NCBI RefSeq assembly: GCF_002127325.2
Contig: NC_035446.2
Coordinates: forward strand, 155,364,629 to 155,428,628
DNA length: 64,000 bases
DNA from: Helianthus annuus
Lineage: Eukaryota; Streptophyta; Magnoliopsida; Asterales; Asteraceae
Reading direction: 5' to 3'
Position 1 is the first letter of the stretch. Each line of letters opens with the position of its first letter. This document shows, piece by piece, positions 10,351 to 63,440 of this stretch. The translations under genes and the position numbers were made by a program. Below the pieces are notes generated by a model, which was not told the DNA's origin, searched no databases, and saw nothing but the letters and a program-made list of their open reading frames with translations.

Positions 10351-10392
10351 TTAGCATTTTCTAATCCATCCCTTTTTTCCTCTCTCACGATC

Positions 10393-35488: not shown

Positions 35489-35539
35489 ACATTGGTCCGG
35501 ACAGTTCACAGCACAGACAGAACTATTGTCATTGTTCAA

Positions 35540-41921: not shown

Positions 41922-42262
41922 GAGTATCATCGTGGTGCCTTCCTTTGGTTCCTATGTAGATGTTTTGTAGGCAATTTGTTACATATTTTCCTTAAGTTAT
42001 AATTATTACAGGTTGTAAGCTGTTTTTAACTAATATATAGATGAGGTTAGTGGTTGCAATTTGTTGCTATATGCTTTCTATTTATGGACATGACTTTTTA
42101 CATTGTAGTGTCTTAGAGATAAAAAAAATAATTCATATCCATTATAAGGAAAAAAATAATACATATTTTTGCTATGTAAGAAAAAAAAACTTATAATTGT
42201 TTATTTATATAAACTTGTGCAATGATGTAGTCTATTAGTTTGCTGGCTGTTAACTATGACAG

Positions 42263-42579
42263 TCTATATACTAATCTGTGGCAAACGGGCATGGTCGTGT
42301 AACGCGTAAACAAAATAAACCCGACAAGCCGAAGACATAATGTCCAAGTCACATTGCGTAGCACGTATAAAAAATGACCAAAGTGCATTAATCTGGACAA
42401 AAAATCAAGCAAATTCTATTACGTTCAATTCACATTTCGTATTCATGTATTTCAATTATGTGTAATTCTATATTTATGTTAGTACTGTAACGTTTCTCTC
42501 ATTAAAAGATTTATGTCAACAATGTTAAATAATACTTTTTTGTGAAGCCACCCGTGTAACACACGGGAACTTAGACTAG
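42263..42579 (+). mobile_element. Probable small non-autonomous Helitron, 317 bp
   Basis: The 3' end has the hairpin CCCGTGT-AAC-ACACGGG followed by AACTTAGA and CTAG, then T: a good Helitron terminus. A candidate 5' end TCTATATACTAATCTGTGGC lies at 42263, but the base before it is G rather than the usual A, so the 5' boundary is less certain. Confidence 0.6.
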
Positions 42580-45100
42580 TATAGCATATATAGGAGAAAC
42601 AACTACACCATAGTATCTATTTAATTACTTTGTCAACCCACACGGCTTAACTGTATATGATCGGTTACATTAGGATTTAACTATATTTATTATTTTCCAT
42701 TATAATATATACTATATCCAAAATATATGTGGCTTGCATGATTTTTTGAATTCTTGTGTACCGTATTTGTTTTCAGATTCTCTTTTGACTTTAGATGTAA
42801 AAATTATTAAAGGTCATGTTTTTCAAACTATCATTAAAAAATGGCATGTATTTAAGAAAGTTAGTGGTTTTAATTGAAATTCAAGAGTAAAAGCATATCC
42901 GTTTGCTTATATCCATGAGACTGAAATTTATTGCATAATTTTATGAGATATTCCACGTTAATTAGTTAAATGGTATATTTAAAGTTTATATTTGTTGTTT
43001 TATTTAGAATTTATAAATCATGGTCCATAATTACAAATAAATTCTTGATGTGAGATAAGCAATTGGTGAATGTTGATAATAAACCTGCAAAAGAACCATC
43101 TGGATATTTTGATATAATTAACTCTTTTAATCCCTTTCTAAATTATTTTTAGATATCTTTAATACAAAGGTTATGCATCACTATAAATGAATATTTAGAT
43201 TTCCTTAACTGTAAAGTTACACATCCCGTGTCATTCAATTTTAGTTATTGTTATTAAAATTTTTAACAAGTTAAATAAATTAGATTAACTGGTTGTCGAA
43301 TGAAGATTGGTTCTAAGATGTCATTTTATGAAAAAAAATCAACTACTAAATGAGAAGATGGTTTTTATATATCTATTATATTTGTATGTCAATAAATGAC
43401 ATATGTTTTAAGTCCATATGAGATTCATTAACGTGGATTATTTATTCATGAATTTAACATTTATCTTGTAATATTTGTTTACTGACACCATATCATACTC
43501 TTCAAATCTTCATAAAGCTATATTAAACCTTATTATATGGAGATATGTTCTAATCTTATGCATTGTATAATATAATTTCTTGGTATGTCATGTATTTTAT
43601 TTTTGTATGGTATTATTTATGTATGTATATAATATAATATTAACTAGTTCTGTTAAACCAAAGTTAGTAGTTTGTTATCTGAAAGTGTGTAAATATGCTT
43701 ATATAAGACAACCGGAGTGGGATACTCTACGAATTTCATTAAAAAGTTATAAAAGGTCGTAAGATATTGACCAATAAATCTTATACGACTTGGTCCTGTA
43801 ACTTTTTCTCAAATTGCATAATGAGAAAAGAAGCTTGTTTTTAAGGAAAATCTAGATGAAGTTTTCAATTTGCTACACTTGAGATATGCTCTTTAAGTAG
43901 CAATATCACATAAAGTTTGAAATGATTTCATATCTATGTGACCCAGTAAATAATGGAAAGCTATGAAGGTTGTTCCGATTCTATTCATCTGAAGCGAATA
44001 TGATTGTATAATGATCATTGAAAATGTCGTTATCATGCACTATTGAGATCGATCATCAGAAGTGCTATGATAACCAAGTTGATAATGAGATTGACCATCA
44101 GAATATTATTGTTATGATAGCCAAGTTAATAATGAGACCGACTATCAGAATTGTAATAATGGTCATAATGAGATAGACCACTAGAAGTGGTAAATTATGG
44201 GAGTGATTATATGAGAACAAAATGTGAAAAGGATAAAAGTTATATAACATGATAGTTTGCAATGATAATGCGTTGTTCTCTCGCATAATGCAACTAATAC
44301 ACATACGATCATAAACTAGAAGTTTATGTATCATGATTATTTACTTAGTTGGCATGACCGGTTAGACCACACCGAGTCAATGATGATGTGACACATAATG
44401 AAGAGCTAAAAGATTCTTCAAGCTAATAATTAGCATGTAATGTTTGCTCTTAAGGAAAATTTTATATTTTGTCAAATAAAGGAGGGTGTGTATCCCTTAA
44501 TATTCTGGAAGTGATTAAAGGATACACATATACCAACATGATACCATTTAGTGTTTTTTAAATCGATGCATCGTCTAAATGGTTATCAAATCCACAACCA
44601 GAAATTTGTGTGATTATTGCTTAGCTAATGTGATAGCAAGCATATTAATACAGATTAGTATATTTATTTTGGTAATAACGATGAATTCAATTCCCAGGTT
44701 ATTAATGATTATTGGAAGAAAATATTGAAATACATATAGCTTATGTTTATACAAGAATTGCTTTGTTGAGATGATCACTAAACGTCTACTATTTATTACA
44801 AAGCCAATGATCATGAGAGGAGCAAAAGTTCAGTTAGGTACATGTAATTTTATATATAGTACCATTAATTCACATCAAGCGAATAAGTTATAGTTCTCCC
44901 CATATATTTGGTTTTTGGTCAGTAATCAAATATGTCTCATCAAAGATTTTGGTTGTGCGACATATATTGAAACTCATCCACCATACCGCACAAAGATGGG
45001 ACTTCTAAAAAGTTTGAGAATATGTTGGGTATAAATAATCGTCTACGATTGAATACTTAAAGCCATTAGTGAGAAATTTGTTTATGGCTCATTGGTTTTT
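42580..45100 (+). other. Copia interior, AT-rich, gag/integrase region decayed beyond recognition
   Basis: No clear domain. Around 44040-44190 a roughly 45-60 bp unit containing GATAACCAAGTTGATAATGA and GA.CATCAGAA is repeated three to four times. Location between the primer site and the RT remnant suggests former gag and integrase. Confidence 0.4.
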
Positions 45101-47100
45101 CACTTTAATGAATGAATGTTCCCAACATTAGGGGGAGATAACAAGTAGTTGGAAAGTGAAAAGTGAAATGAATTATCATGTCATCTTGATCCTCGGACTA
45201 TAAACTATGAACTAGAAGTTTAAAGTATAATTCATTTACCAATATTAAAGAATAAATTACCAGACGAGTTCACTGACCTAAATAGAGTGACTAAGTAAGT
45301 CACATAATCAACTGCTTATGCTCCATTTATGTTTGTGTCCCAGAAGGACAACCACATATTTTCTAATGAGTCTATTGCACGCTTGAAGCATGGTAGACTA
45401 GTTGATTCCAGTAATACAATTCCTCGAAAGTTGGAGCAACTAATTAAGATGGTCAAGTCGAGGTGATATTAAAAAGGTCTCCTGAAGAGACAGTAGACAT
45501 GATGGTTCAAGAAGAACCTCAGGTACCTGGAAATAAAGAGATCTCGATAAGTTGTATCATGTCTAAGATATGTACGGAATCGAAACAAAAATCGACGTCG
45601 TTATAATTTTGTATATAATGTAGCGCTTATAATGATTAAACGAAGAGTATCAAGATTGAGATCTGCCTATGAACGTAAACATAGAAATGATTGGCCAAAA
45701 TGAAAAGATGCAAATAAGGCAGAGTTGAATTCTCTGTTGAAATGGAAAGTTTTTGGATCACTAGTCCATGCAACTGAAGTTGTAAGATGTGTTGGATACA
45801 AATGGGTCTTTTATGCAAGTTATGAATAGAAAATAACATGAAGTTATTTTAAGAAAAATGGTGGCACAAGATTTTTGCAAATAATTGATTAATGAGGAGA
45901 CTCATTCTTTAGTGGTGGATACAATGACTTTCCAATATCTTATTAGTCTGGTAATATAAAGAGAGAATTGATATGTGTCTTATGAATATTGTGTATCACT
46001 TGATACTGAAAGTTTACATGAAAGTCCTCAAGGATTAAATTATATAAGTCATGTAAAGTAAGTTTTCGAGAACAATGTGATCATTGTATACATATTCGGA
46101 TTTGAATATGTTATGAGTTTTTACATGTTGGATATAACTGAAACTCCTGATGAGTTTCTAAAGCAATTGAGTGTCTTAAAAAGTTAATTGAAATGTCTTA
46201 ACGATGTAATACTTGTGCACCAAGAAACATACATAGAAAACGTAATAGTGTACACGCATGGTACAATATGGATTTTGGAGATAAAAGCAAGTGTTTATGG
46301 CATTTGTGCATATGATACAAATCTATATGTGTTATATGGGTAAGTTTATGTAACACAACTCATGAAGAGTGAATGCACATGCATATTTGGATAAGATGGG
46401 AAGAATTCCTTCATGGATTGATAATGCTAGAAGCATTGATATAAAAACCTTAAGGACATACTATATGAAGTTGACAAAATATGTATGGACTAAAATAGTC
46501 GGGTTGAGTTTTGTACAACTCGAGATATTCGCATAAAGAGGGATATAAGTTTGATTAAATTAGCCATGTTTTATCAATATTCTGCTTTTAAAAGCTCACT
46601 ATAATCGCAGTTTACAGTGATGATGTGTAGGCATCATCGAGAGAAACTGTCAAGCTTTTAGATGGAGAATTTTTTTAATGACCTTGGCACAGTCTAATTA
46701 TTACTCGAACTGCAGTTCGAGTATATATGTAATTATATTTTATCAATCCCTCAAGTATATCTAGAAGATGATGTTGGGATATTTTAATATGGGCATAGTT
46801 GAACCTTAAAGGATGTTAAAGGTTCTTAAGTCACTTGTTATAAGAAATGCTTATTATCATCTCCTACCAAAGTAGAGATTCTCATTCTAGAAGTACCATC
46901 GTGAAATGCATATGTGCATTAATATGTTTTGCTAGCTATGTATGGTTATAATATCTTTCACTTGAGCTAATTGTCATGATATAGCCTTTGTCAAACGAAT
47001 AGATATTGAAATGAGTTCAAAGAAATATTTCAGGTATAAACGATATTTGATTATATTTTACTAACCCATCAAAACAAGCTTGGTTAGTCTTATAGATGCA
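45100..47100 (+). pseudogene. Copia pol remnant (integrase C-terminus, reverse transcriptase, RNase H)
   Basis: Read with many stops and frame changes: MFPTLGGDNK then LE.E and WNELS-like sequence before LDPRT near 45116-45200 (end of integrase region); NDWPK and KAELNSLLKWKVFG near 45690 (start of the RVT_2 domain); VGYKWVF; VAQ.F and THSLVVDTMTF near 45900; and a decayed later RT/RNase H part to about 47100. At least a dozen stops are visible. This cannot encode protein. Confidence 0.7.
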
Positions 47101-47520
47101 GGAATGTGACAAAACACAGTCATTGACATATGATGTTTTTGGAGACACCTAAAGTCTCGTCAGAAGATTGTACAACATTGCTCAACATAAATGATTGCAC
47201 ATTAAAGGATGGAGCGACAAATAATTGGCTACAAAAGCTTTGATCAATTTTCAAGGAAGATGGACATACGTCACTTAAAGGATACATGTTAAAATGAGGG
47301 GGAGACATATTCAAGTTGCACTCTTTTTCCCTCACTAAGTTTTGTCCCATTTGGGTTTTCTTAGTAAGGTTTTTAATGAGGCAACATACATGATCCAGAA
47401 GTATCATGAGAAGAAAATACGCGCTGCACTCTTTTTCCCTTAGCTGAGGTTTTGTCCCACTGGGTTTTCCTAGCAAGGTTTTTAACGAGGCAACATCTCA
47501 AGCGTATTAAGTTGATAACC
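47101..47520. other. Copia 3' untranslated region
   Basis: Contains a duplicated block, 'TTTTTCCCTCACTAAGTTTT' near 47324 and a similar copy near 47431, each followed by GTCCCA.T.GGGTTTTC and AGCAAGGTTTTTAA-like sequence. This kind of repeated 3' leader is common in plant Copia elements. Confidence 0.5.
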
Positions 47521-47529
47521 AAGGGGGAG

Positions 47530-47730
47530 TGTTATAAATATATTACTATAATATTATGGTTATCAACTCTTAAAATAAACTGGTTTCTTCTCCAAGTTTT
47601 CTTCTTCTATATATACTACATTGTATCTCTTGTATTAGACAGATCTATCAATGAAATATCAGTCTTTTTCTTCCTACATCTCTTTCTCTTATTGTTTGCT
47701 ATTAGGCTAGTAGGTCGTTGTTTAACAACA
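47530..47730 (+). repeat. 3' LTR of the Copia element
   Basis: 201 bp, ends GTTTAACAACA. Three differences from the 5' LTR. The GGGTA duplication follows. Confidence 0.95.
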
Positions 47731-47786
47731 GGGTAATCATTGTTGGGGCATTATTCCACTACATCCATTTTAAACAAATACCATCA

Positions 47787-48341
47787 TGGATCCCGAAGAA
47801 ATGCAATGTGTTCATTTGGAGAGCGGATATGAATAGGATTGCTACCGCCGACGCCTTGTTAAATCGTAGCATTGATATCGGCAGTTCGGAGTGTGGTTTA
47901 TGCGGTGAAGGGGTTGAGACCGTGGAACATCTGTTCACGTCGTGTTTTTTTGCTTCTATGCTTTAGTCGTGGATCGGGAAGTGGGTTAAATGTCAACCCT
48001 TAGTGGCGTTCTCCTTTAGGGATCTCTTGGAAGTTCACAACCATGCGGGTCTTGTGGCAAGAAGGTTGAAGCTCTTAAAGGCCTTATAAGAATTGGGTGT
48101 TGGTCGATTTGGAGAATGAGGAACGATGCAAGGTTCAAGAACAAAGAAGCTAAGCTTGAGTTTATTTTTGGTGATGTTAAGAAGCGTGGTTTCCTTTGGT
48201 TCAAGACTAGGAACAAAGATATAGAAACTTCATGGAATGATTGGTGTAAATTTGTAAATATTTAATGTTGTAGTTGTTTTTGGTTGCCTTGGTTTGAGGT
48301 AGCTAGTGTTTTATTGAAGTTTACCTTTCAAAAAAAAAAAA
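47787..48341 (+). mobile_element. 5'-truncated LINE insertion with zf-RVT end and poly-A tail
   Basis: The insert reads WIPKKCNVFIWRADMNRIAT, SECGLCGEGVETVEHLFTSC and IWRMRNDARFKNKEA, the C-terminal zf-RVT region of plant L1 elements. A stop at 47964-47966 and a frame break near 48088 show it is inactive. It ends in 12 A. The 13-bp duplication ACAAATACCATCA flanks it (47774-47786 and 48342-48354), giving both insertion borders. Confidence 0.92.
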
Positions 48342-48354
48342 ACAAATACCATCA

Positions 48355-49051
48355 AATACCCCAATGCTAACTCGACTGCCACATGTCGCTTCATACGCAT
48401 AAATGAGATATTAGATTCAAGCCCACTACACATACACGTGATCTAATAAAATAATTGTTTAGTGTTATTAAATCGCCTACTATAGTATTATTACTTCTCC
48501 TTCTCTCACCTGCTCACCATCTTCTTATTCACAATCTTCCATTGAAGAACTGAAGACCACATTGAAGGTCACAATAAATACAAATCAAACTAACTTTAGT
48601 TCTTTTTTTTTTCTCATCCAAACTATTATGTCTCTACCGACTATAACTTCATGTTTAAAATATGCATAATACATTTTAGAAAATTTAGGCCCATGGAAAA
48701 AAAGGCCCCAACCGGGGGTGCGGTTTGCCCACCCTCAGGGCCCGCCCGACCACAGGTATGGTTAATAATGTTGAACCACAAATTGGTATCTGATCACACA
48801 AATATTCTCACCATAACTAATGATTTCATTCAATAACTTCAAGACTTAATTACAAACACACGTTCACCACCAACGTTCATGAGGAACTCCGGCGAGTAAA
48901 ACGGACAACTTGAGACTTATTCCAACTTAAATAATAATACACGCTGAAAACGATCGAGTTTGTACGTGTAATATTACAGAAAGAAAACTAACAGAGATCA
49001 TGCATGGCTTTATTATATCTTATATGCATGCATGCAAACGGAGTAAAACAG
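48355..49051. other. Interval between LINE and albumin gene; hAT-like fragment
   Basis: Mostly non-coding. At 48670-48750 TTTAGGCCCATGG...AAAGGCCCC and GCCCACCCTCAGGGCCCGCC resemble a hAT end region similar in style to the element at 334-1569, but no complete element could be drawn. The part next to 49051 is the 3' flank of the albumin gene. Confidence 0.4.
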
Positions 49052-49605
49052 TCAAACAGTATCGGTTCCGACTGAGCATTTGATGTTGCATTGGTTGGGG
49101 AGCATCTGAGCCTTCTTCAACACCTGCAGTAGTTGTCCGCCATGCTGTTGCTTCGGAACTTGTTTCACCACCTGTTTGATCGCCTCACACTGAGAATCCT
49201 CCTCCACTTCCTTAAGCTGGTTGCAGCACAGGTTAAGGCGTTTTTGTTACACCATGGGCTTGTTATCGAGGAGGTGCATCTGGCAGTGGCTCAGCTTTTT
49301 CAGGGTCGGGAAGCAATAAGAGAAGTCCCCAAATACACAACAAGTAGTGTGGTCGTCATAAGCGTAACAACCATCATTAACCTGCTCGGTTCCGACTGAG
49401 CATTTGATGTTGCATTGGTTGGGGAGCATCTGAGCCTTCTTCAACACCTGCAGTAGCTGTCCGCCATGCTGCTGCTTCGGAACTTGTTTCACCACCTGTT
49501 TGATCGCCTCACATTGAGAATCCTCCTCCACTTCCTTAAGCTGGTTGCAGCACAGGTTAAGGCGTTGTTGTTCCACCATGGGCTTGTTATCGAGGAGGTG
49601 CATCT
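49052..49605 (-). pseudogene. Albumin polyprotein, 3' part (rest of module 4, module 5)
   Basis: Starts at the CATCT duplication with HLLDNKPMVEQQ and runs to a TGA at 49052-49054 after SVGTDTV. The module-5 codon that is GAA in the other modules is TAA at 49247-49249, and the next CAA is AAA. Cut off from the promoter by the chromovirus, it is unlikely to be expressed as part of the gene. Confidence 0.9.
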
Positions 49606-52391
49606 TGTCACACCCCAACCGATGGCGGAATCATCGGGGCGTGGCACTGAGCGAAACAGATTGTTCAGAAGTTTCCACAACAACTATCATACAATTCAGT
49701 TATATAACACGTCCCATACCGTGTCCCAAATAATAACAAGTTATCATAGAAATCAACTAAACAATATGGGAACTGTTCCGACAACTCGGATTCTTAATTA
49801 TTACAGACCAAAAGTAAATATTGTTTTAAGTCTTCTAGACGACTACTGGGGATCTTACTGACTACAGGTGCCAGTGCAAGATCTACAGATAATTATGGCC
49901 CTGGAACAGGTACGTGGGCACTGTCCTAAGGTCACAGACTCCTAGAAGCTTATTATTGCCTCGCTTCCCTAGCACGCTAGTAGCTTAAACACCTGTCACA
50001 TACGTTAAAATAAAAGTCAATACATATAATGTAAAGGTGAGTACACAAGTTTGATATAGCATATAGAGTTCGAATAGTTTACGCATAACCAAGCACGTAC
50101 ACAAGGGCAAACGATGCATGTAAATTATCAACATGGGACCATCGATACCAATGACTTCGGGTTGACTGTCCGAGACAGTTCGCAATACATGATTACCACC
50201 GTAATCCATGCAAGTAATTGTCCTTAGCAACCCCCGTGTGAACGGGTGCTGAGTCCAAACTATAGTACTACGTTGCTAAAGCAGGCAGATAGCACTCCAC
50301 GTGTAAACATAATAAACAGCAATCATTTAGACAAGTAATACATGCAAGTAGGTTAGCGTTCAAATAGTTTGTGTTGTTTGTGAATTTGATAGATTACGTA
50401 TGTAACACCCAAAAGTGCTGAAAGCAAAAAGGGATCGAGTATACTCACAGTGATTGATGTGGATTGAAGGGAGCACTGAGAATAGGTTAGCCTGAATAGT
50501 TCGATAACACAACGATGAGTAACGCGGAAAAGTAAACAATGTACTTGGATCGAGTAGGCCATTCGATCGGACAGCAGTTCGATCGAGTGGGCTGTTCGAT
50601 TGGTTTGTAAGTCCGTTCGAACATCCATTCGATCGGTTGGCTGGCTCGATCGGTTGGTTCCTTCAAGTGGATTGTTTCTTCCTTTGATGTGAAGGATGTG
50701 TTTGTGTATGATGGTTTGTACTACCTTTCAAGTTGGTCGATCGAACAGCAGTTCGATCGGTTAGCCCAACCGATCGGTTAGTAAATTCAGATTTGGCAAG
50801 ATGTCACTCGATCGGTTAGCATGCTCGATCGGGTGGCATTTCAAAAGTCCAAGGGTTTTTAAAGTATAGTATCTCATGATCCGAGCAGTAATGTTTACAA
50901 TCGAGTGGCTTAGTCGATCGAACAGTACCTCGTCAATACTACACTTTGTGAGTTGGTGAGTCTAAGTGCTGGTCGATCGGTTAGCCTAGTCGATCGGCTG
51001 GCATAGTCGTTCGGTTGGGCTGTTCGATCGAACAGCCTAGCCGTTCGGCCAGCTTCTCGATTTGGTTAACTTATCACCTAACACTTGGTTATTCCCGTTA
51101 CTTGGTGTGATTTGGAGATATTTTGACTACGAGTTGAACCACGAAACTGAAGTCCCTACTTAGTCTACTGACTCGAGCAGGAATCACCCAAACTCGGTCA
51201 GAAACGGTTTGGAACCTAAGTTTAACATTTAACCCGGAATCGGTATATCTCGTGGTAGAACCCGAATCTTGAACCATGTGTTTGTTTAGATTGATTGTAA
51301 GTCGGTTCAAGTCTCGTTTTCACCTTTTTGAGTGTAAAAGAGTTGAAAGATAGATGAAAACCCATCTTCCAATCCTTTTTCACCGTGAAATGTTAAGATC
51401 TATGGAAGATTTTAGGTTATTGATGTGGAAATCGGTTAGATCTAGCTTATTCATGGTTGAATGAAGTCAAGAACATGAAGTTCTTGATGAACACCAAGAA
51501 TACCATGATGACATCACTCAAGAACACCTAGATCTTGGTGATTTCATGGATGAAATTCAGATTTTGAAAGATAGAAAGATGGAGAATCGATTAATGAACA
51601 CGAACGTACAAAGATTAGAGTGAAATACTTACCGGTTTGAGAGAAATCTTGGATTTAGTGAGAAGAAGAGGCTGGTCGGTCAGAGCTTTTCCAAAAGTGG
51701 AAAGTTTGACAAGGACAGCCCTATTTATAGGCTTCCAAAAGAGGAAAGGTCAGCTGATCGAACAGCATTCCTGATCGAGCAGCTGTCCGATCGAACGGTC
51801 CTGTTCGATCGGCTAGCCTGTTCGATCAGGTTGCCCTGTTCGATCGGCTTGCCTGGTTTTTGAGTGTTTCGCGACGATTTTTGATATTTCGACTTCGATG
51901 AACGATGATTTGAGCATGATAGAATTCCTAATCAAATTACTTTTAGTCCCAACTACTATATCTAACATACAAGCATCCTTACAACCATTTCGAGTTCGAT
52001 TTCCATTGAGTTTGATTCACCTTGAGTCTTGATTGATTTGATCGATTCACCACACACACTTTAACATAAAAGCAAACATGCACAAGTAACACATAAGGCA
52101 CACATGCACGTATAAGAGCATTAAAATCCACACACTTGAGTTGGATGATTGATTCGATTAGTTTGATTATTGATTGACTAGCTTTATTGCGTTGTTACTT
52201 CCTATCCTTCACAGTCGGTCGTTGATTCACAGTTCGATTGTCGGTCGGTTAGTTTGATTATACAACACTTACTCCAAATAATACGGAAATCAAAATGAAA
52301 CTAAAATGAAATTAACCTTACTAATCTTTAATTCCAATAACAGTCAACACTTGACTTTGACTTTGACTTTTGGAAAACACGGGGTGTTACA
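49606..52391 (-). repeat. 3' LTR of the chromovirus
   Basis: Equal in length and content to 58175-60960. About 16 CGATCG sites cluster at 50540-51040 and 51770-51850, mostly as TTCGATCGAACAG or CGATCGGTTGGC variants, on both sides of the TATA box. Confidence 0.96.
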
Positions 52392-52410
52392 GTCTCCCCT
52401 CCTTTAGGGA
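52392..52410 (-). other. Polypurine tract of the chromovirus
   Basis: Minus strand CCTAAAGGAGGGGAGAC directly before the 3' LTR start TGTAACACC. Confidence 0.85.
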
Positions 52411-52478
52411 ATTTCGTCCCGAAATTAGGCCGAGAACCGTACATCGCCGTGTGATTTTACCTATTTGATGCTTCAGAT

Positions 52479-55400
52479 CTATCTGAATAACTGCGGGTAC
52501 TTGGCCTTCATGTCACTTTCGAGTTCCCAAGTGAACTCCGCGCCTCGTTTGCCTTCCCACCGTACCTTTACAATAGGAATGCGAGAGCGTCTGAGTTGCT
52601 TGGTCTGTCGGTCCATGATTTCGACAGGCTTTTCCACGAAGTGTAGCGTCTCATTGACCTGAAGATCGTCGAGTGGTATTACTGCGTCGTGGTCGGCTAC
52701 GCATTTTCGAAGGTTTGAAATATGGAAAGTCGGGTGGACATTGCTGAGTTCCTCCGGTAATTCGAGTTTGTAGGCAACCTTACCGATCCTTTCCAGAATC
52801 TTAAAAGGTCCAACAAATCGAGGCGCAAGTTTCCCTCTTTTACCGAATCGGACTACTCCCTTCCAAGGTGATACCTTTAGGAGCACGTAGTCGCCAACTG
52901 CAAATTCGCGGGGCCTGCGTCGTTTATCGGCGTACATCTTTTGTCTATCCCGGGCCTTTACCAAATTTTCCCTTATCTGGTGGATCTTGTCAGTCGTTTC
53001 TTGCAGAATCTCGGGCCCAGTCAATTGTGAATGACCGACCTCGTGCCATACAATAGGCGAGCGACATCTCCTACCATACAAGGCTTCGAAAGGTGCCATT
53101 TCGATGCTGGAGTGATAGCTATTATTGTACGAAAATTCGACCAATGGTAGGTGTTTGCTCCAACTACCACCAAAATCGATAACACACGCACGGAGCATGT
53201 CTTCAATAGTACGAATCGTTCTTTCAGTTTGCCCGTCGGTTTGCGGGTGGAATGCGGTACTCAAATTCAGCGTCGTACCAAGAGCTGCTTGAAAGGTTTC
53301 CCACAATCTCGATGTAAACCGAGCGTCGCGATCCGAAATGATGTCTCGAGGCGTACCATGATTCTTAATGATCTCGTCGGTGTAGATTTGGGCTAGTTTG
53401 GCCACCTTATAGTCTTCTCGTATTGGCAGAAAGTGGGCTGATTTGGTTAGACGGTCGACTATAACCCAAATACTGTCGTGACCTGATGGCGTGGTCGGAA
53501 GCTTAGTTATGAAATCCATAGCTATGCTCTCCCACTTCCATACGGGTATCGGCGGTTGTTCGAGTAAGCCTGAAGGTCTTTGGTGTTCAGCCTTGACTCT
53601 TGCACAAGTTAAACAGCTACCAACATATAGAGCAATATCCCTTTTCATCCCAGGCCACCAGTACTTGTAACGAAGGTCCTGGTACATTTTATCCGCACCG
53701 GGATGAATGGAATATCGGGATTTGTGGGCTTCGTTCATGATGATCTTTCGCAAATCTGTCCTCCTCGGAACCCAGATTCGGTCCAGATAATAGAATATCC
53801 CGTTGGCCTTGCTCACGAGTTGAGTTCCATCGTGATAGATTCGTTCTTTCTTCAACGTGCGTTCGTTAAAGCATGCGTGTTGTGCTTCGCGGATGAGAGC
53901 TTCGAGGTTATACTGAGCCTGGATGTTTCGAACACCTATCACGTAATTCTTTCTGCTGAGGGCGTCTGCAACTACATTCGCCTTGCCTGGGTGATAACGG
54001 ATCTCACAGTCGTAGTCGTTGAGAAGTTCTACCCATCGGCGTTGACGCATATTGAGTTCCCTCTGGTTAAAGATATGTTGTAGGCTCTTGTGATCGGTGA
54101 AGATCGTACACTTTGTACCATACAGGTAGTGTCGCCAAATCTTTAAGGCAAAGACAACTGCGCCTAGCTCGAGGTCATGGGTCGTATAGTTCTTCTCGTG
54201 AATTTTAAGCTGTCGAGATGCGTAAGCTATAACCTTGTCTCGTTGCATAAGAACACAGCCAAGTCCAAGGTTTGAAGCATCACAATAGACAACGAAGTCA
54301 TCGCTTCCGTCCGGCAGTGTAAGAACTGGTGCATGGCACAGCATGTGTTTTAGGGTTTGGAAAGCAGTCTCCTGCGCGGTTCCCCACACAAAAGGCTTGT
54401 CTTTATGAGTAAGGGCGGTAAGCGGTACAGCAATCTTTGAGAATCCTTCGATGAATCGTCGGTAGTAACCAGCTAATCCGAGAAAGGAGCGAACTTCTGA
54501 CGGATTCTTTGGCGTAACCCATCCTTTGACTGCCTCAATCTTTGCAGGATCAACGTGTATACCCCGACTATTCACAATATGACCCAGAAATTGGACCTCC
54601 TCCAACCAGAATTCACATTTGGAGAATTTGGCGTAGAGTTGGTTTCCCTGAAGCAACTCGAGAACCAATCGCAAATGCTGCGCATGTTCGGCCCTCGATC
54701 TGGAATAGATCAGGACATCGTCGATAAATACAATGACAAAACGGTCTAAGAACGGTTTACACACGCGATTCATCAGATCCATAAAGACCGCGGGTGCGTT
54801 GGTCAAACCAAAAGGCATGACAACAAATTCGTAGTGGCCGTATCGGGTTCGAAAAGCGGTTTTGGGTATGTCTTCCTCTTGAATCCGCAACTGATGGTAG
54901 CCTGAACGTAGATCAATCTTGGAGAAACACTGAGCACCTTGTAGTTGGTCAAACAGATCATCGATTCTTGGTAAGGGGTATCGGTTCTTAATGGTCAACT
55001 TGTTCAATTCCCGGTAGTCGATGCACATTCGGAACGACCCGTCCTTCTTTTTGACGAAAAGGACTGGTGCGCCCCATGGAGAAGTGCTCGGGCGAATGAA
55101 GCCTTTTTCAAGTAACTCTTGAAGTTGGTTCGAGAGTTCTCGCATCTCAGATGGAGCGAGTCGATACGGAGCCTTGGCCACTGGGTTGGCTCCTGGTATA
55201 AGGTCGATTCGAAAGTCGATATCACGACTTGGAGGTAATCCAGGAAGATCATCAGGGAACACCTGAGGAAATTCTCGGACAACAGGAACATCCTTGACTT
55301 CAACTTTCTTTTTCTTATCCGTCTCTGCTACTATAATGTTGGCCAAGAAGGCTCGATATTCCTTGCGGAGATATTTGCGAGCTTGAAGACAGGACATGAG

Positions 55401-57092
55401 TTTGAGATCTTTTGCAGTAGTTTCACCGTACACACATAGTATATCACCACTAGCTAGCACAAAACGAATCATCTTATCGGAACACACAACTTCAGCACGG
55501 TTTTCACGAAGAAAGTCCATGCCTACTATGACATCGAAACTTCCGAGTTGCATTGGAATGAGATTAATCGGAAATATATGATTGTTGAGTTTGAGAGTAC
55601 AATCACGGAGCACAGAATTGACAGCAATGGTTCTTCCGGTAGCGACTTCTACTTCGAAGGGTGTCGAAAGATAAGAGCGCTTACGTCTAAGAAGTTTCTC
55701 AAATTCAAATGACACAAAGCAGTTATCGGCTCCAGTATCAAACAGACATGATGCATATATACCATTCACAAGGAACGTACCATTGACCACGTTGTTATCA
55801 GCTTGAGCCTGGCGTGCGTTGATGTTGAAAGTTCTGGCGTGAGCGGCTTGCTGTTGAGGCTGTTGTTGTTGTTGTTGGGGTTGTTGAGCTTCTTGTTTCA
55901 CCACCCTGTTCGGGCACCGGTTCGCGAAGTGGTTAGGGTCACCACATGCAAAGCAGGTCCGAACATTGTTTGCTGGGGCCTGTGCAGCTTGAGGAGTTTG
56001 AGGAGCAGGGAGTAAAGCCTGGTTGACAGCGGCCTGAGCTTGGGCTTGACGGGGACCATAGCGGCAACTCGCAGTGAAATGCCCGTAAACGTTGCAGTGG
56101 GCACAGAATCGGCAGGCCACACCCACCGGGTGATGGTAGGAACATGTAGCACAGAGTGGGTGGGGGCCGGTGTACGCACGCTTTGCTGGCGGCGCATTGA
56201 TCACTGGCGCTGAACGCTGTGGCTGTTGCTGCTGCGCGGGTACAGACTGTAGTGGAGTAGCAGTGGTTGCGGCAGCGCAACTCTTCTTCTTTCTTCTCCT
56301 TGAGGACTTGGAGGCTTGAGCAGTAGGGTTGTCGGTTGATGCAGTAGTAACTTGATGCAACGATTTGGATGGCTTATCCCAGACACCAGCCTTAACTCGC
56401 TTGTCGTTAATCTCAGCAGCGAGTAGGTAGGTTTCCTCGATCGTTGCGGGTTTGGCGGCGTGAACAAAATCTGCGACACAATCCGGAAGAGCACGGATGT
56501 ATTTCTTGATGGTCATGTCAGAAGTCTTGACCTGGTCGGGACATATGATACTCAATTGCTTGAAACGAGCGGTGAGACCAGCATTGTCTCCCTCCTTCTG
56601 CTTGATACTCCAGAACTCATCCTCCAACTTTTGGCGTTCGTGGGGAGGACAGAACTCGTCCATCATGATCGATTTCAACTCCTTCCACGTCAGCTCGTAT
56701 GCAGCGTCGTTTCCGCGCTTGTTCCTTTCTGCGGTCCACCAGTCCAAAGCTCGTGACTGGAAGACACCGGTAGCATTGAGAGTACGGAGGTGATCTGGGC
56801 ATCCGCTTTGACGAAGGGTAACTTCCACAGAGTCAAACCAATGAAACAGAGCCGTAGGGCCATCTTCACCGGTAAACTCTTTTGGCCCACATGCCTTGAA
56901 TTGTTTGAAGCTAAAAGTAGCTTTGTTGGAGTCTTTGGGCGTGAGGGTTCGGGATTCCTCAGATGACTTGCTTGCGTTCTCGAATACTTCACTCACAGCC
57001 TTTGCTACTGTTTTAGAGAGGATAGCAGCAAGACGACGATCTCTCTTCTCCCGACGAGTAAGACGTTGACGAGGCCTTGATGATGACGACAT
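52479..57092 (-). CDS. gag-pol: Gag-pol polyprotein of the chromovirus, single intact frame
   Basis: 1537 residues from the ATG at 57092 ([11 protein letters not shown]); earlier in-frame codons lack ATG. Gag core at about 60-220 ([26 protein letters not shown]), a Cys/His-rich segment at about 314-343, and a CCHC knuckle [14 protein letters not shown] at about 380. Protease [11 protein letters not shown] near 450. Reverse transcriptase [18 protein letters not shown] and FIDD near 790. RNase [11 protein letters not shown] near 937. Integrase HHCC finger near 1123-1163, then D (AMDFITKLP), D (ISDRDARF) and E (DGQTERTIR). C-terminal chromodomain at about 1485-1537 ([20 protein letters not shown]). 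No stop or frame break. Expected products act in cytoplasmic particles and then the nucleus; the chromodomain is thought to guide integration. Confidence 0.96.
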
Positions 57093-58157
57093 GGTCTGCA
57101 ATTGACATCGCCATAGGGCTCAACACAACGAATTCGAATCTCGCACGTCTTAGTTTACTAAAGCTTAGAATCACGTCGCATCTCACGTCACGTAACACAT
57201 ATAAACACATAAACACATAATCACAGAGACACATAAGCACAGAAGCAACTAAAGCACAGAAGCAATTAAGCAAATAGAGCACTTAATTTCCTAAACACGT
57301 ATGAAATTTTATCACAGAAGCAGTCAGAAAACAGAAACCTATATCCACATGTCGAGTGTCGTTCGTTTCGCATACCGGATAGCATCACATTGTATCGTCT
57401 AACTTAGTCGTATTGCGTAGCATAGCATACTGGTTTCGCTTAGATCGCATCCACAGGGATTTGAATCGAGATAGGATAGCAACAAAGGTCACGCAGATTG
57501 ATAACAAATGGAGTAACCAACAAATCTTAAAACACGTAAACAGGTAAATCACAGAAAGTCGACGAAGCAGTACTCCAAAATCGGAAAATGGATTGTCTGT
57601 GGCTACTAGACTTTGACTAACCATGGCAATTTAACTATTCACAGTTGACTTGTCGTCACTTTCGACTCTAGGGGACATGTTTCTGCCTCGATTCTTGGGC
57701 ATTACGCATGCGTATTCTAGGCCATACTCGTGAGTTCAGGTCGTTGGAGTCCGTCAATTGTCTTGGCGAGATGAAATAAAGTCGGAATAACTGCCAAGGT
57801 TAGGGTTTCACCCCTAGCTTAGCAATTTCTTCCCTGTTTTAAGAAAATTTAGAGGAAGTTTCTTATCAATTTATGGGCTTCAACCCCGAATTTGGTATAA
57901 CTCTCCCCCGTTTGTTGATAGAAAATCGCACAAAATTAATTGGCAAGAATTCGTAACTTAGGCAGGAATTTGCGGGTTTCACTCCTAATCCTGTCCAAAT
58001 TACAAAAATTTGGCTCGGAGTTCGGATGTAATGATAGAATAGAAGGAAACAACATAAAATAAGCACATAAACTTGGTCTCTTGGTTCCTAACTATAGTCT
58101 AGGCCTCTAAGACAGCGATCCGGACTAGATCGTGTCTAACCTAATTCCCTATAGTTA
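57093..58157 (-). other. Chromovirus leader, non-coding
   Basis: About 1.07 kb between primer site and gag start. No protein-like frame; likely the packaging and leader region. Confidence 0.6.
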
Positions 58158-58159
58158 TG

Positions 58160-58171
58160 GCTCTGATACCA
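58160..58171 (-). other. Primer binding site, initiator tRNA-Met
   Basis: TGGTATCAGAGC on the minus strand, three bases inside the 5' LTR end, the standard site complementary to the 3' end of initiator tRNA-Met. Confidence 0.92.
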
Positions 58172-58174
58172 ATC

Positions 58175-60960
58175 TGTCACACCCCAACCGATGGCGGAAT
58201 CATCGGGGCGTGGCACTGAGCGAAACAGATTGTTCAGAAGTTTCCACAACAACTATCATACAATTCAGTTATATAACACGTCCCATACCGTGTCCCAAAT
58301 AATAACAAGTTATCATAGAAATCAACTAAACAATATGGGAACTGTTCCGACAACTCGGATTCTTAATTATTACAGACCAAAAGTAAATATTGTTTTAAGT
58401 CTTCTAGACGACTACTGGGGATCTTACTGACTACAGGTGCCAGTGCAAGATCTACAGATAATTATGGCCCTGGAACAGGTACGTGGGCACTGTCCTAAGG
58501 TCACAGACTCCTAGAAGCTTATTATTGCCTCGCTTCCCTAGCACGCTAGTAGCTTAAACACCTGTCACATACGTTAAAATAAAAGTCAATACATATAATG
58601 TAAAGGTGAGTACACAAGTTTGATATAGCATATAGAGTTCGAATAGTTTACGCATAACCAAGCACGTACACAAGGGCAAACGATGCATGTAAATTATCAA
58701 CATGGGACCATCGATACCAATGACTTCGGGTTGACTGTCCGAGACAGTTCGCAATACATGATTACCACCGTAATCCATGCAAGTAATTGTCCTTAGCAAC
58801 CCCCGTGTGAACGGGTGCTGAGTCCAAACTATAGTACTACGTTGCTAAAGCAGGCAGATAGCACTCCACGTGTAAACATAATAAACAGCAATCATTTAGA
58901 CAAGTAATACATGCAAGTAGGTTAGCGTTCAAATAGTTTGTGTTGTTTGTGAATTTGATAGATTACGTATGTAACACCCAAAAGTGCTGAAAGCAAAAAG
59001 GGATCGAGTATACTCACAGTGATTGATGTGGATTGAAGGGAGCACTGAGAATAGGTTAGCCTGAATAGTTCGATAACACAACGATGAGTAACGCGGAAAA
59101 GTAAACAATGTACTTGGATCGAGTAGGCCATTCGATCGGACAGCAGTTCGATCGAGTGGGCTGTTCGATTGGTTTGTAAGTCCGTTCGAACATCCATTCG
59201 ATCGGTTGGCTGGCTCGATCGGTTGGTTCCTTCAAGTGGATTGTTTCTTCCTTTGATGTGAAGGATGTGTTTGTGTATGATGGTTTGTACTACCTTTCAA
59301 GTTGGTCGATCGAACAGCAGTTCGATCGGTTAGCCCAACCGATCGGTTAGTAAATTCAGATTTGGCAAGATGTCACTCGATCGGTTAGCATGCTCGATCG
59401 GGTGGCATTTCAAAAGTCCAAGGGTTTTTAAAGTATAGTATCTCATGATCCGAGCAGTAATGTTTACAATCGAGTGGCTTAGTCGATCGAACAGTACCTC
59501 GTCAATACTACACTTTGTGAGTTGGTGAGTCTAAGTGCTGGTCGATCGGTTAGCCTAGTCGATCGGCTGGCATAGTCGTTCGGTTGGGCTGTTCGATCGA
59601 ACAGCCTAGCCGTTCGGCCAGCTTCTCGATTTGGTTAACTTATCACCTAACACTTGGTTATTCCCGTTACTTGGTGTGATTTGGAGATATTTTGACTACG
59701 AGTTGAACCACGAAACTGAAGTCCCTACTTAGTCTACTGACTCGAGCAGGAATCACCCAAACTCGGTCAGAAACGGTTTGGAACCTAAGTTTAACATTTA
59801 ACCCGGAATCGGTATATCTCGTGGTAGAACCCGAATCTTGAACCATGTGTTTGTTTAGATTGATTGTAAGTCGGTTCAAGTCTCGTTTTCACCTTTTTGA
59901 GTGTAAAAGAGTTGAAAGATAGATGAAAACCCATCTTCCAATCCTTTTTCACCGTGAAATGTTAAGATCTATGGAAGATTTTAGGTTATTGATGTGGAAA
60001 TCGGTTAGATCTAGCTTATTCATGGTTGAATGAAGTCAAGAACATGAAGTTCTTGATGAACACCAAGAATACCATGATGACATCACTCAAGAACACCTAG
60101 ATCTTGGTGATTTCATGGATGAAATTCAGATTTTGAAAGATAGAAAGATGGAGAATCGATTAATGAACACGAACGTACAAAGATTAGAGTGAAATACTTA
60201 CCGGTTTGAGAGAAATCTTGGATTTAGTGAGAAGAAGAGGCTGGTCGGTCAGAGCTTTTCCAAAAGTGGAAAGTTTGACAAGGACAGCCCTATTTATAGG
60301 CTTCCAAAAGAGGAAAGGTCAGCTGATCGAACAGCATTCCTGATCGAGCAGCTGTCCGATCGAACGGTCCTGTTCGATCGGCTAGCCTGTTCGATCAGGT
60401 TGCCCTGTTCGATCGGCTTGCCTGGTTTTTGAGTGTTTCGCGACGATTTTTGATATTTCGACTTCGATGAACGATGATTTGAGCATGATAGAATTCCTAA
60501 TCAAATTACTTTTAGTCCCAACTACTATATCTAACATACAAGCATCCTTACAACCATTTCGAGTTCGATTTCCATTGAGTTTGATTCACCTTGAGTCTTG
60601 ATTGATTTGATCGATTCACCACACACACTTTAACATAAAAGCAAACATGCACAAGTAACACATAAGGCACACATGCACGTATAAGAGCATTAAAATCCAC
60701 ACACTTGAGTTGGATGATTGATTCGATTAGTTTGATTATTGATTGACTAGCTTTATTGCGTTGTTACTTCCTATCCTTCACAGTCGGTCGTTGATTCACA
60801 GTTCGATTGTCGGTCGGTTAGTTTGATTATACAACACTTACTCCAAATAATACGGAAATCAAAATGAAACTAAAATGAAATTAACCTTACTAATCTTTAA
60901 TTCCAATAACAGTCAACACTTGACTTTGACTTTGACTTTTGGAAAACACGGGGTGTTACA
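58175..60960 (-). repeat. 5' LTR of the chromovirus
   Basis: Minus strand TGTAACACCCCGTG...GGGGTGTGACA. Same length as 49606-52391, no mismatch noticed. It includes the CGATCG-rich stretches described for the other copy. Confidence 0.96.
60290..60299 (-). promoter_or_regulatory. TATA box of the chromovirus 5' LTR
   Basis: CTATAAATAG on the minus strand (the same box is at 51721-51730 in the 3' LTR), about 660 bp from the U3 start. This implies a very long R-U5 of about 2.1 kb. Confidence 0.65.
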
Positions 60961-62139
60961 CATCTGGCAGTGGCTCAGCTTTTTCAGGGTCGGGAAGCAA
61001 TAAGAGAAGTCCCCAAATACACAACAAGTAGTGTGGTCGTCATAAGCGTAACAACCATCATTAACCTGCTCGGTTCCGACTGAGCATTTGATTTTGCATT
61101 GGTTGGGGAGCATCTGAGCCTTCTTCAACACCTGCAGTAGCTGTCCGCCATGCTGTTGCTTCGGAACTTGTTTCACCACCTGTTTGATCGCCTCACACTG
61201 AGAATCCTCCTCCACTTCCTTAAGCTGGTTGCAGCACAGGTTAAGGCGTTGTTGTTCCACCATGGGCTTGTTATCGAGGAGGTGCATCTGGCAGTGGCTC
61301 AACTTTTTCAGGGTCGGGAAGCAATAAGAGAAGTCCCCAAATGCACAACAAGTAGTGTGGTCGTCATAAGCGTAACAACCATCATTAACCTGCTCGGTTC
61401 CGACTGAGCATTTGATGTTGCATTGGTTGGGGAGCATCTGAGCCTTCTTCAACACCTGTAGTAGCTTTCCGCCATGCTGCTGCTTCGGAACTTGTTTCAC
61501 CACCTGTTTGATCGCCTCACACTGAGAATCCTCCTCCACTTCCTTAAGCTGGTTGCAGCACAGGTTAAGGCTTTGTTGTTCCACCATGGGCTTGTTATCG
61601 AGGAGGTGCATCTGGCAGTGGCTCAACTTTTTCAGGGTCGGGAAGCAATAAGAGAAGTCCCCAAATACACAACAAGTAGTGTGGTCATCATAAGCGTAAC
61701 AACCATCATTAACCTGCTCGGTTCCGACTGAGCATTTGATGTTGCATTGGTTGGGGAGCATCTGAGCCTTCTTCAACACCTGCAGTAGCTGTCCGCCATG
61801 CTGCTGCTTCGGAACTTGTTTCACCACCTGTTTGATCGCCTCACACTGAGAATCCTCCTCCACTTCCTTAAGCTGGTTGCAGCACAGGTTAAGGCGTTGT
61901 TGTTCCACCATGGGCTTGTTATCGAGGAGGTGCATCTGGCAGTGGCTCAGCTTTTTCAGGGTCGGGAAGCAATAAGAGAAGTCCCCAAATACACAACAAG
62001 TAGTGTGGTCGTCATAAGTGTAACAACCATCATTAACCTTCTCGGTGACAGTGGTGATGATGGTTCGGTAGCTAGCAACCTCAACAAATGCTACCATCAC
62101 CACCATAGCGAGTACTGCAACAACTTCAAGTTTTGCCAT
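60961..62139 (-). CDS. Albumin polyprotein, 5' part (signal peptide, modules 1-3 and start of 4)
   Basis: Open from 62139 through the LTR border. In the present DNA the frame runs about 16 codons into the LTR and stops at 60913, so a truncated product with three complete albumin modules remains possible. Modules differ by single residues: Thr7 in module 1; Ser48 and Lys83 in module 2; Ala16 and Lys99 in module 3. No intron is needed. Confidence 0.9.
61066..62037 (-). repeat. 324-bp coding tandem repeat, three uninterrupted copies
   Basis: Period exactly 324 bp (108 codons), copies almost identical at DNA level. Two more copies lie across and beyond the retrotransposon insertion. Confidence 0.95.
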
Positions 62140-62144
62140 TGTGT

Positions 62145-62167
62145 TGTAGTAGTAGTAGTAGTAGTAA
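62145..62167 (-). repeat. (GTA)n microsatellite in the albumin 5' UTR
   Basis: About seven GTA triplets directly upstream of the ATG, read as (TAC)n on the transcript. Confidence 0.85.
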
Positions 62168-62206
62168 CCGATAAAACTGCCTTACTCAAACAAGGGGAAG
62201 TTGCTT

Positions 62207-62214
62207 AATTTATA
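62207..62214 (-). promoter_or_regulatory. TATA box of the albumin gene
   Basis: TATAAATT on the minus strand, about 70 bp upstream of the ATG, a normal spacing for a short plant 5' UTR. Confidence 0.75.
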
Positions 62215-62269
62215 GTGTAACTGCTCGATTTGCAGGAAGGTTAGCTAAGTGGTGAATTGTATGGCCAAA

Positions 62270-62288
62270 TATGTGTAACGTGTGCATG
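62270..62288 (-). promoter_or_regulatory. RY element with adjacent ACACGTT motif
   Basis: On the minus strand CATGCACACGTTACACAT: the RY core CATGCA (62283-62288) next to an ACGT core, 70-80 bp upstream of the TATA box. RY plus ACGT motifs are the usual seed-storage promoter code bound by B3 (ABI3/FUS3-type) and bZIP factors. This supports seed expression of the albumin gene. Confidence 0.6.
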
Positions 62289-62289
62289 A

Positions 62290-63440
62290 AAGCAACAAGT
62301 CGAACAGTGCGGATCTACGGGTATCCCCGAGATACCCCACAACTTTATGGTGAATTATTGAAAATATTGGCTTCCTATCAATAACAGTTGTAAGGGGTAA
62401 GGGTGGTCATCACTCATCACTCATCACTCACTCACAACTTCCAATCAAGTTCCGCTATGTCATCAAACATTATTGCATCACCCACAACCTTTTTAGTGGA
62501 AATGGCCATCACTCACCACCACACACAACAATTTCCCTCACCACCCATACCCCATCACCCATCAAAAATACCACGTGTTTTAAAATTGATGTGGTGTACA
62601 TTTGAGTGGTGGTGATGGTGTTTGGGAACTCATAACTCGTTATATAATTCCATCACGTGGGATTTGTTTTCCACCCCAGGTCCCCTAATCATTTATAACG
62701 TATTGATTGTTTTAAAAGAATCCAAAATAAACGGATATAAATATCGCCTCACACCACACATTTTGGCCCACTATAATTGAATTATTGGACTGCTATTGCT
62801 TTTACTATTGGATCACCAGCACTAAAAGTAAACAATGCTAGGAGAGAGGAAAAAGTTGATGGTACTGGATTTGTTATGACATTATTGTGAGGTAAGAGGC
62901 CGGTGTACTACTTCGGTTATGTATCCGTAGAATACCCAAAAATGTTTAAAAATGTGTCTTCTATTATTGGCTAGTCATCTAATTAACATTTAACAACACC
63001 CACAAACATCCTCATAAACTTTTCCAAATCATTGATTTCATCCCATAAAACATCCTTACAATATCCACGTCATAACTAAAGTCTAGACAAAAAAATATAA
63101 TTAAAGACCCAACCCACCCCCAACTCATCCGTACCCATTGACCTTTAAATCAAAAACCACTTTGGATTAAACACATTAGGAGCTTGAAATAACCAGATTC
63201 CTGATTCGGGAAGCCAAGGCTAAACCCAAAATGCTATTAAGTTTTGATCTAAAGATGAAAATGAAGAAGTTTTGGTATTATGAAAAGAGATAAAATAGAT
63301 GAGGTTTAAAGTAAAAGAGATGAAGTAGATGAAAACTTGTGGAAATCATTGTGAAACGTAGTAGAATTGGTGTGAAAAGATGAAATCTTAATTAGAAAAC
63401 ACGGGTTTGGAGTAGGGAGTGTTTTGTGCGAAGTGGGTAG
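62290..63440. other. Upstream region of the albumin gene, no further gene seen
   Basis: Contains CATCACTCATCACTCATCACTC simple repeats near 62408-62432 and a CACGTG box near 62573 (plus a second CACGTGGG near 62654). AT-rich otherwise. No coding region supported. Confidence 0.45.

Follow-up and report, generated by a model that had tools for sequence, protein, structure and literature searches.

The albumin array and the element that interrupts it

Within the window, the 64,000-nucleotide stretch of Helianthus annuus DNA analysed here, the minus strand at 49052-62139 carries one secretory leader followed by five head-to-tail albumin modules with a unit of 324 bp. The start codon ATG (62137-62139) opens a 37-residue segment (62029..62139) that comprises a hydrophobic leader and a short pro-region ending in TIITTVTEKVND; it is homologous to PawS leaders, and its secretory role is predicted. 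Modules 1, 2 and 3 (61705..62028, 61381..61704 and 61057..61380) follow on the same strand. Module 4 is divided into a 5' part (60961..61056), which runs to a Met codon within a target duplication, and a 3' part (49373..49605), the first bases of which are doubled by that duplication. Module 5 (49055..49372) contains an internal nonsense codon and is followed by the original stop codon TGA (49052..49054). A TATAAA located 75 bp 5' of the start codon (62209..62214, minus strand) and an AATAAA about 38 nt 3' of the original stop (49009..49014, minus strand) are consensus matches only.

One leader and five modules had been claimed in the original prediction, and both the flank-joined reading and the repeat period bore this out. 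The NDGCY motif begins at residues 36, 144, 252, 360 and 468 of the joined reading, and this spacing places the module starts at residues 38, 146, 254, 362 and 470. The predicted length of exactly 108 residues holds for modules 1-4, whereas module 5 has 106 residues and its stop. Tandem Repeats Finder reported a period of 324, 3.4 copies and 97% matches for the uninterrupted part (60961-62046), and identity between module copies was 97.1-99.3% over the 306 nt compared. Across the insert, the copy spacing of 11,684 bp is accounted for by the element (11,355 bp), the target duplication (5 bp) and exactly one period of 324, so the period is unbroken and the two halves of module 4 were once adjacent. 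The five-module array is therefore real, far beyond chance, and three complete units with part of a fourth lie in a single uninterrupted frame, as in a multi-albumin precursor. No further albumin gene was found in the window by tblastn with 7 of the 39 proteins (E up to 0.01), all 36 matches falling within 48,900-62,300; Rfam at gathering thresholds gave 0 matches in the window and ARAGORN 0 tRNAs.

The insert in module 4 is a complete Ty3/gypsy LTR retrotransposon (49606..60960), on the minus strand and thus in the orientation of the gene. It is bounded by two identical LTRs of 2,786 bp each (49606-52391 and 58175-60960) and flanked by the target-site duplication CATCT (left copy 49601..49605, right copy 60961-60965). 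Its open frame (52479-57119) matches gag, protease, RT, RNase H and the integrase zinc-binding domain, in that order; the zinc-binding domain is the only integrase part among the matches listed, and the core domain is not among them. The domain order, the LTRs and the short target duplication place the element in Ty3/gypsy. Judged from the LTR pair, which has 0 differences over 2,786 bp and gives a 95% age bound of about 41,000-54,000 years under assumed rates, the insertion is very recent, so that insertion-free alleles may persist in wild or cultivated sunflower.

A second lesion lies in module 5, where the nonsense codon TAA (49247-49249, minus strand; residue 511 of the joined reading) occupies the position of GAA in the other four modules. 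The allele would therefore stop 41 residues into module 5 even without the insert, and the continuous frame expected once the insert is set aside was not recovered. Since the gene is broken twice, by the retrotransposon and by the nonsense codon, the release of five albumins from one transcript, as originally proposed, is excluded for the present allele. What remains is an uninterrupted ORF of 408 residues from the ATG into the LTR (P0028, representing 2 sequences on 2 contigs), which would yield at most three whole albumins and a truncated module 4 with 15 LTR-read residues. The public protein P0004, '2S albumin-like [Helianthus annuus]', corresponds letter for letter to the 3' remnant except for one skipped stretch of 120 bp, bounded by GT..AG and containing the TAA; this odd intron independently implies the nonsense codon, and the gene model misrepresents a broken locus. 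By this protein identity, sunflower is very probably the source of the sequence.

Affinity with PawS preproalbumins

PF00234 matched three stretches in the uninterrupted part, and P0001, P0002 and P0003 scored 31.8, 34.0 and 70.8 bits against a curated cut-off of 21.7 bits, as expected for the 2S albumin/prolamin superfamily; the albumin helical fold of that superfamily was likewise recognised. AlphaFold2 modelled the module with moderate confidence (mean pLDDT 75.2 and pTM 0.56, against 51-67 for the remaining four models). The best solved structure was PawS1 (5u87), both by sequence (E 1.4e-17) and when the predicted module was compared with Foldseek (E 2.2e-06). Protein searches were performed with P0001, P0003 and P0029 as queries. 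With P0001, which returned 24 proteins, 21 of the 22 matches besides P0004 and P0005 (P0006-P0027) were labelled PawS or PawS-like, and the remaining one, P0010, 'putative AAI/SS protein'. Sequence similarity thus places the gene nearest to the PawS preproalbumins, to which the SFTI-1 precursor belongs, rather than to generic 2S albumins. PawS1/PawS2 (with SFTI-1) and PawL1 share the leader, the pro-region and the CFP motif with the array gene, as well as the albumin core LSHCQMHL...LCCNQL..V...QCEAIKQVV...KAQMLPNQC, and the PawS/PawL order of leader, pro-region and albumin is present in homologous form (alignment A1).

The cysteines separate the modules from the canonical family. A canonical 2S albumin has eight cysteines with CC and CxC, paired 1-5, 2-3, 4-7 and 6-8 (PMC2570561, available text). 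Each module has ten cysteines, identical in 5/5 modules, and Ser replaces cysteine 5 in every module and in P0005, whereas the other 22 of the 24 aligned rows have Cys there. The earlier assignment to 2S albumins thus stood as regards the albumin-type domain, while the eight-cysteine pattern was rejected for modules that are nonetheless homologous and albumin-like, and the nearest kin proved to be PawS. Pfam and phmmer both aligned Cys20 (SYCFP) to cysteine 1; MAFFT instead matched it to the final cysteine of the buried peptide. The gap from Cys20 to the next cysteine is nine residues, as in PawS1; nine were counted in 10 of the 24 rows and 8, 11 or 12 in the others. The N-terminal segment of the module, which is fused to the albumin, contains four cysteines in a pair of peptide-like hairpins (C-x8-C, then C-x7-C). 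The disulfides predicted for one module are C2-C11, C12-C20, C30-C49, C50-C95 and C62-C99.

In PawS/PawL proteins, the buried peptide precedes an Asp and a small residue-Leu tail, which serve its excision and cyclisation (PMC6223261 section 2.3). In 5/5 modules, TLKKLSHC comes directly after CFP and offers no Asp/Asn before the albumin cysteine. PawS1 combines a single albumin with a cyclic peptide that can be excised (CFPD-GLDN), whereas the array gene has five modules, lacks the Asp-Gly-Leu excision site and cysteine 5, and carries the four-cysteine segment in fused form. The closest one-module relative is P0005, a paralogue of 143 aa from Helianthus (probably annuus), which is 78% identical over leader and module. 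P0005 has the same four-cysteine layout, Ser at cysteine 5 and GTDTV end, but differs in its single module and diverged N-terminal segment; from its sequence, it shows what would be the parental form of the array gene.

Other precursors with several albumins

To count albumin cores, 7,994 candidates were scored, with a length of 0.55-1.75 of 396 residues and one-module proteins excluded. Two cores were found in 51 of the 62 Asteraceae proteins counted, a proportion that, given the length window and the limited candidate scoring, is no census. No five-core precursor occurred among the 62, and the module number exceeds every relative counted, as predicted; the highest credible number was three, in a Tagetes model. 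An uninterrupted multi-module homologue, which the original prediction had proposed to look for in relatives, did not emerge from the protein searches: with P0001 and with P0003 (12 proteins, from the 7,995 candidates with most words in common), the only proteins to show this module type in several stretches were P0028 and P0004, which both derive from this locus. Neither a transcript nor a mature peptide nor an intact allele came to light.

Two-albumin Asteraceae precursors ('2S seed storage protein', 'seed storage albumin 6 precursor'), which we take to be of the sunflower HaG5 type, resemble the array gene in being multi-albumin, with two albumins behind one leader. Those compared (P0029-P0037, P0039) are 26-34% identical to the window protein, and their albumins are diverged and canonical, with CxC intact. 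Tagetes erecta QVD17_05845 (P0029, 396 aa) has three albumin cores and no internal leader visible, but it is an automatic gene model and its units belong to the two-albumin lineage. Its cores 2 and 3 are near-repeats of each other. Erigeron P0051, with four cores, was rejected as a counter-example, because a second leader-like stretch, MAKLTLLALAF, in mid-protein indicates that it is probably two genes fused by annotation. No description of a three- or five-albumin precursor or of this locus was found in the literature covered, which lay mostly outside subscription papers, and a paper surveying the LTP/PF00234 genes of sunflower (PMC8912825) makes no mention of such a precursor in its available text. 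The locus is a real, recently disrupted multi-albumin gene; multi-albumin precursors are already known, and five modules go beyond the relatives counted.

Origin and fate of the array

The locus most probably represents an H. annuus PawS-family preproalbumin gene whose unit was duplicated via ACCGA, amplified to five and later broken twice. The last 24 nt are identical at all four inter-module junctions, which join the original 3' end (GTCGGAACCGA) to the original pro-region (ACCGAGAAGG) over a common ACCGA. A single albumin unit may thus have been duplicated head to tail through this 5-bp microhomology, and the duplicated unit would then have been amplified to five near-identical 324-bp units. 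The intact ancestor would have encoded one secreted precursor, which vacuolar asparaginyl endopeptidase would have cleaved after every VND and, probably, after the LLDN within each module as well; one predicted processed chain starts with GCYAYDDHTTCC and ends with LLDN, and the predicted large chain ends with EQVND, which only modules 1-4 can provide. Several copies of a small-plus-large-chain albumin could then have been released per mRNA, before the Ty3/gypsy insertion in module 4 and the nonsense codon in module 5 presumably ended this. Separation of the modules at VND, part of the original proposal, is plausible by homology, legumains cutting after Asn/Asp (PMC8600085, in the text available). 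Asp stands directly before each array module, unlike the invariant Asn directly before PawL peptides (PMC6223261 section 2.3), which counts against processing as deduced from homology.

The present allele may also be a truncated working gene, with promoter, leader and modules 1-3 intact and a transcript that ends in the 5' LTR and yields three albumins and an LTR-tailed fragment. We give this reading appreciable weight, though somewhat short of an even chance: the 408-residue frame is uninterrupted from the ATG into the LTR and present on 2 contigs, the VND ahead of the broken module 4 is intact, and AATAAA/ATTAAA-like hexamers occur at 5' LTR offsets 59 and 203, although such hexamers are expected to be frequent in A+T-rich DNA. 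A 10-kb element downstream may, moreover, bring silencing.

Rather unlikely, we consider, is decay before the insertion, with neutral five-fold amplification in a pseudogene and a five-albumin precursor that was never used. The modules differ from one another by 13 changes in 12 codons, of which 6 are synonymous, 6 missense and 1 nonsense, with a non-synonymous to synonymous ratio per site of about 0.29 (hand arithmetic); the probability of at least 6 of 13 being synonymous under neutrality is 0.028, 0.060 and 0.088 at a transition bias of 1, 2 and 3. The changes only suggest past constraint, a signal lost at the 5% level with a bias of 2 or 3, and sequence errors could be among the 5 of the 13 that are C-to-A or G-to-T. 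This marginal excess, the missense share, the nonsense codon in module 5 and the lost cysteine 5 would all suit an early-dead array. Against it, the length of the unit is divisible by three, the five modules have 0 frameshifts, modules 1-4 have no stop and the ten cysteines are identical throughout; the loss of cysteine 5 is common to the open one-module paralogue P0005 and so predates the array. A miscount of near-identical repeats is very improbable: copies 97-99% identical are a recognised difficulty and the module count comes from the assembly alone, but 4/5 modules have amino-acid or stop changes of their own, module 4 has a synonymous change seen in no other module, frame and period are maintained on both sides of the insert, and P0004 reproduces the module 4/5 remnant without alteration, while P0028 lies on 2 contigs (though a common source is possible).

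A bolder reading can be put forward tentatively: a true poly-albumin, which sunflower may have now or may have had until very recently, of up to five near-identical hairpin-albumin fusions, with a line-variable module number and a retrotransposon allele that still expresses three. Each product would join a six-cysteine albumin to two PawS-peptide-like hairpins, each locked by a cystine, and buried peptides would have a third fate besides loss and excision, in which they are welded onto a storage protein and multiplied. As insertion-free alleles may exist, expression, processing and copy-number variation are directly testable. PawS genes serve as a model for the birth of new peptides within an old seed protein, and the locus adds a PawS-family route in which the excision site and cysteine 5 were lost and the whole module was amplified to five. 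Within the PawS-derived peptide family, PDP-23 of Zinnia elegans forms disulfides Cys I-II and III-IV and two beta-sheets (PMC10096437, available text); it is a free 28-residue macrocycle, whereas the array segment has no cyclisation site. Tandem units per precursor are also found in Oak4 (3 cores) and TIPTOP3 (8 cores; both PMC11253845, available text) and in Dahlia PawL1e (P0038), in which the repeated units are short peptides rather than whole albumins.

Structure and family of the albumin array

The locus is a real, uncommon five-module PawS-type albumin gene that was recently disabled. On the minus strand, a hydrophobic leader and short pro-region of 37 residues ending TIITTVTEKVND (ATG at 62137-62139) are followed in a single open frame by the albumin modules. 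Modules 1, 2 and 3 are complete, module 4 is interrupted after ...SHCQM at 60961 by an insert of 11,355 bp and continues from 49605, and module 5 is followed by the TGA at the 3' end of the array (49052-49054). The modules were pairwise 97.1-99.3% identical at the DNA level (306 nt compared), with private amino-acid or stop changes in modules 1, 2, 3 and 5 and a private synonymous change in module 4, which argues that the array is not one unit multiplied by the assembler. The five head-to-tail modules after one leader proposed in the original prediction were thus borne out, and their length of exactly 108 residues holds for modules 1-4, module 5 having 106 residues plus the stop.

PF00234 was found above the Pfam cut-off in all three queries. 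The best solved relative was the PawS1 precursor, both by sequence (5u87, E 1.4e-17) and by structure (Foldseek with the predicted module, E 2.2e-06). The protein search with the leader and module 1 returned 24 proteins, and the 22 ranked after P0004, annotated as '2S albumin-like [Helianthus annuus]', and P0005, a Helianthus paralogue, were labelled PawS or PawS-like in 21 cases and 'putative AAI/SS protein' in one. P0005 (143 residues) is 78% identical and shares the GTDTV end of the array, but contains one module only.

Ten cysteines occupy identical positions in all five modules. Cysteine 5 of the usual eight, which is described as pairing with cysteine 1 in 2S albumins (PMC2570561), is absent from the albumin core: of 24 aligned rows, those of the window module and of P0005 have Ser at this position and the remaining 22 have Cys. 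The N-terminal segment, GCYAYDDHTTCCVFGDFSYCFP, contains four cysteines, spaced C-x8-C and C-x7-C. Among known peptides, those it resembles include PawS peptides of Zinnia, for example GPCYSYQSCFPD (PMC4216380), and, with regard to the number and order of cysteines, PDP-23 with its two disulfides (PMC10096437). Excised peptides are described as accompanied by a tail of Asp, a small residue and Leu (PMC6223261), but this tail is absent from the modules, where CFP leads straight into the albumin. We read the buried peptide as having become permanently incorporated into the small chain of the albumin. Cys20 was placed at cysteine 1 by Pfam and phmmer, and at the last cysteine of the peptide by MAFFT. 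The AlphaFold2 module model has three strands (2-6, 9-14, 17-22) and then four helices, the strands matching the expectation for two consecutive hairpins; with a best mean pLDDT of 75, and 51-67 for the other models, it is only suggestive.

Origin and rarity of the five modules

The last 24 nt are identical at all four inter-module junctions, which fuse the original 3' end, GTCGGAACCGA, with the original pro-region, ACCGAGAAGGTTAATGAT, across a common ACCGA, with one A-to-C difference in the pro-region part. Module 5 alone retains the P0005-like C-terminus, and module 1 alone is preceded by the pro-region. A single microhomology duplication at ACCGA, followed by unequal exchange, would account for the junction structure and give rise to the five-module array. 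Synonymous states were common to different module pairs (codon 27 in modules 2 and 3, codon 75 in modules 3 and 5), and exchange between units could produce them.

Among 62 proteins (P0029-P0090) from searches with P0003 and the Tagetes erecta protein P0029 (396 aa), in which a length window excluded one-module proteins, 51 contained two CC...CxC cores, eight one, one none, one three and one four, and none contained five. Two-albumin precursors are thus ordinary in Asteraceae, three being rare and five unseen in the sample. The three-core protein is from Tagetes erecta. The four-core protein (P0051, Erigeron canadensis, 623 aa) has a second leader-like stretch mid-protein, and so is probably an annotation that fused two adjacent two-albumin genes. 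Protein searches with P0001, P0003 and P0029 revealed no case elsewhere in which a whole PawS-type albumin is repeated, nor did the titles, abstracts and selected passages of the literature searched. Tandem repetition of short peptides is described for other plant peptide precursors (PMC11253845), and in Dahlia pinnata PawL1e (P0038) the buried peptide unit NGLFPYGPDSLKD is repeated in tandem about nine times within a single precursor.

Disruption of the present allele

The insert in module 4 is a Ty3/gypsy element, complete and oriented like the albumin gene. It is bounded by two LTRs of 2,786 bp each with 0 differences (49606-52391 and 58175-60960), is flanked on both sides by a 5-bp target duplication, CATCT, and contains one open frame with matches to gag, protease, reverse transcriptase, RNase H and integrase zinc-binding domains. 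It also carries a TGGTATCAGAGCC motif, which we take to be a primer-binding-like site. Assuming 1.0-1.3e-8 substitutions per site per year, the identical LTRs give an insertion age of at most about 41,000-54,000 years (95% bound). The LTRs also contain several short arrays built from 17-18-bp units in which GATCGAACAG- and GATCGGTTAG-like words are frequent.

The repeat copies flanking the insert are spaced 11,684 bp apart, equal to the element, the duplication and exactly one 324-bp period, which indicates that the halves of module 4 were once neighbours. The frame continuity given in the original prediction was not confirmed: the joined frame is closed by a TAA at residue 511 (49247-49249, module 5), where the other four modules have GAA. 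The allele has thus been broken twice.

P0004 starts at a methionine codon inside the target duplication, at the retrotransposon border. Its first 89 residues are identical to the 3' remnant; it then omits a 120-bp stretch bounded by GT and AG, which contains the nonsense codon, and is identical again to the end. This protein identity makes sunflower the very probable source of the window. The match also indicates that the sequence behind P0004 has the same upstream break and the same stop, and that P0004, as judged from sequence, is a prediction forced round both. P0028, a 408-residue ORF running from the leader into the LTR, is listed as representing two sequences on two contigs.

Predicted products, selection and other features

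Asparaginyl endopeptidase is reported to cleave after Asn or Asp (PMC8600085) and to mature PawS precursors (PMC6223261). Cleavage after VND would separate the modules and cleavage after LLDN would split the small chain from the large chain, and five modules would yield five near-identical albumins per transcript. Comparison of P0028 with P0003 showed 15 LTR-coded residues at the truncated end, and the present allele could produce at most three albumins and a truncated piece with these residues. The promoter side looks undisturbed at the sequence level: TATAAA at -75, CATGCA at -149 and two CACGTG boxes at -438 and -520 lie upstream, and AATAAA lies about 38 nt downstream of the old stop, motifs that also arise by chance and are no proof of expression.

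Thirteen changes in 12 codons distinguish the modules (six synonymous, six missense and one nonsense; 60.3 synonymous and 245.7 non-synonymous sites compared). The probability of at least six synonymous changes among 13 was 0.028, 0.060 and 0.088 at transition biases of 1, 2 and 3, above the 5% level at 2 or 3, which weakly favours a protein that was working during the lifetime of the array. In the gene's orientation, C-to-A or G-to-T accounts for 5 of the 13 changes, including the nonsense change (49052-49605 and 60961-62139), and this share could include sequence errors.

Elsewhere in the window, a second large retrotransposon-like region (10318-15937, plus strand) contains ORFs of 351, 220, 912 and 459 residues that by eye resemble gag, protease/RT/RNase H and integrase. 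At 17205-19969 (minus strand) lie ORFs of 420, 341 and 268 residues that are perhaps transposon-derived. Tandem repeats comprised two copies of a 291-bp unit with 94% matches (41339-41921) and arrays with nested periods of 42/127 bp (6146-6727) and 42/84/126 bp (35533-35969).
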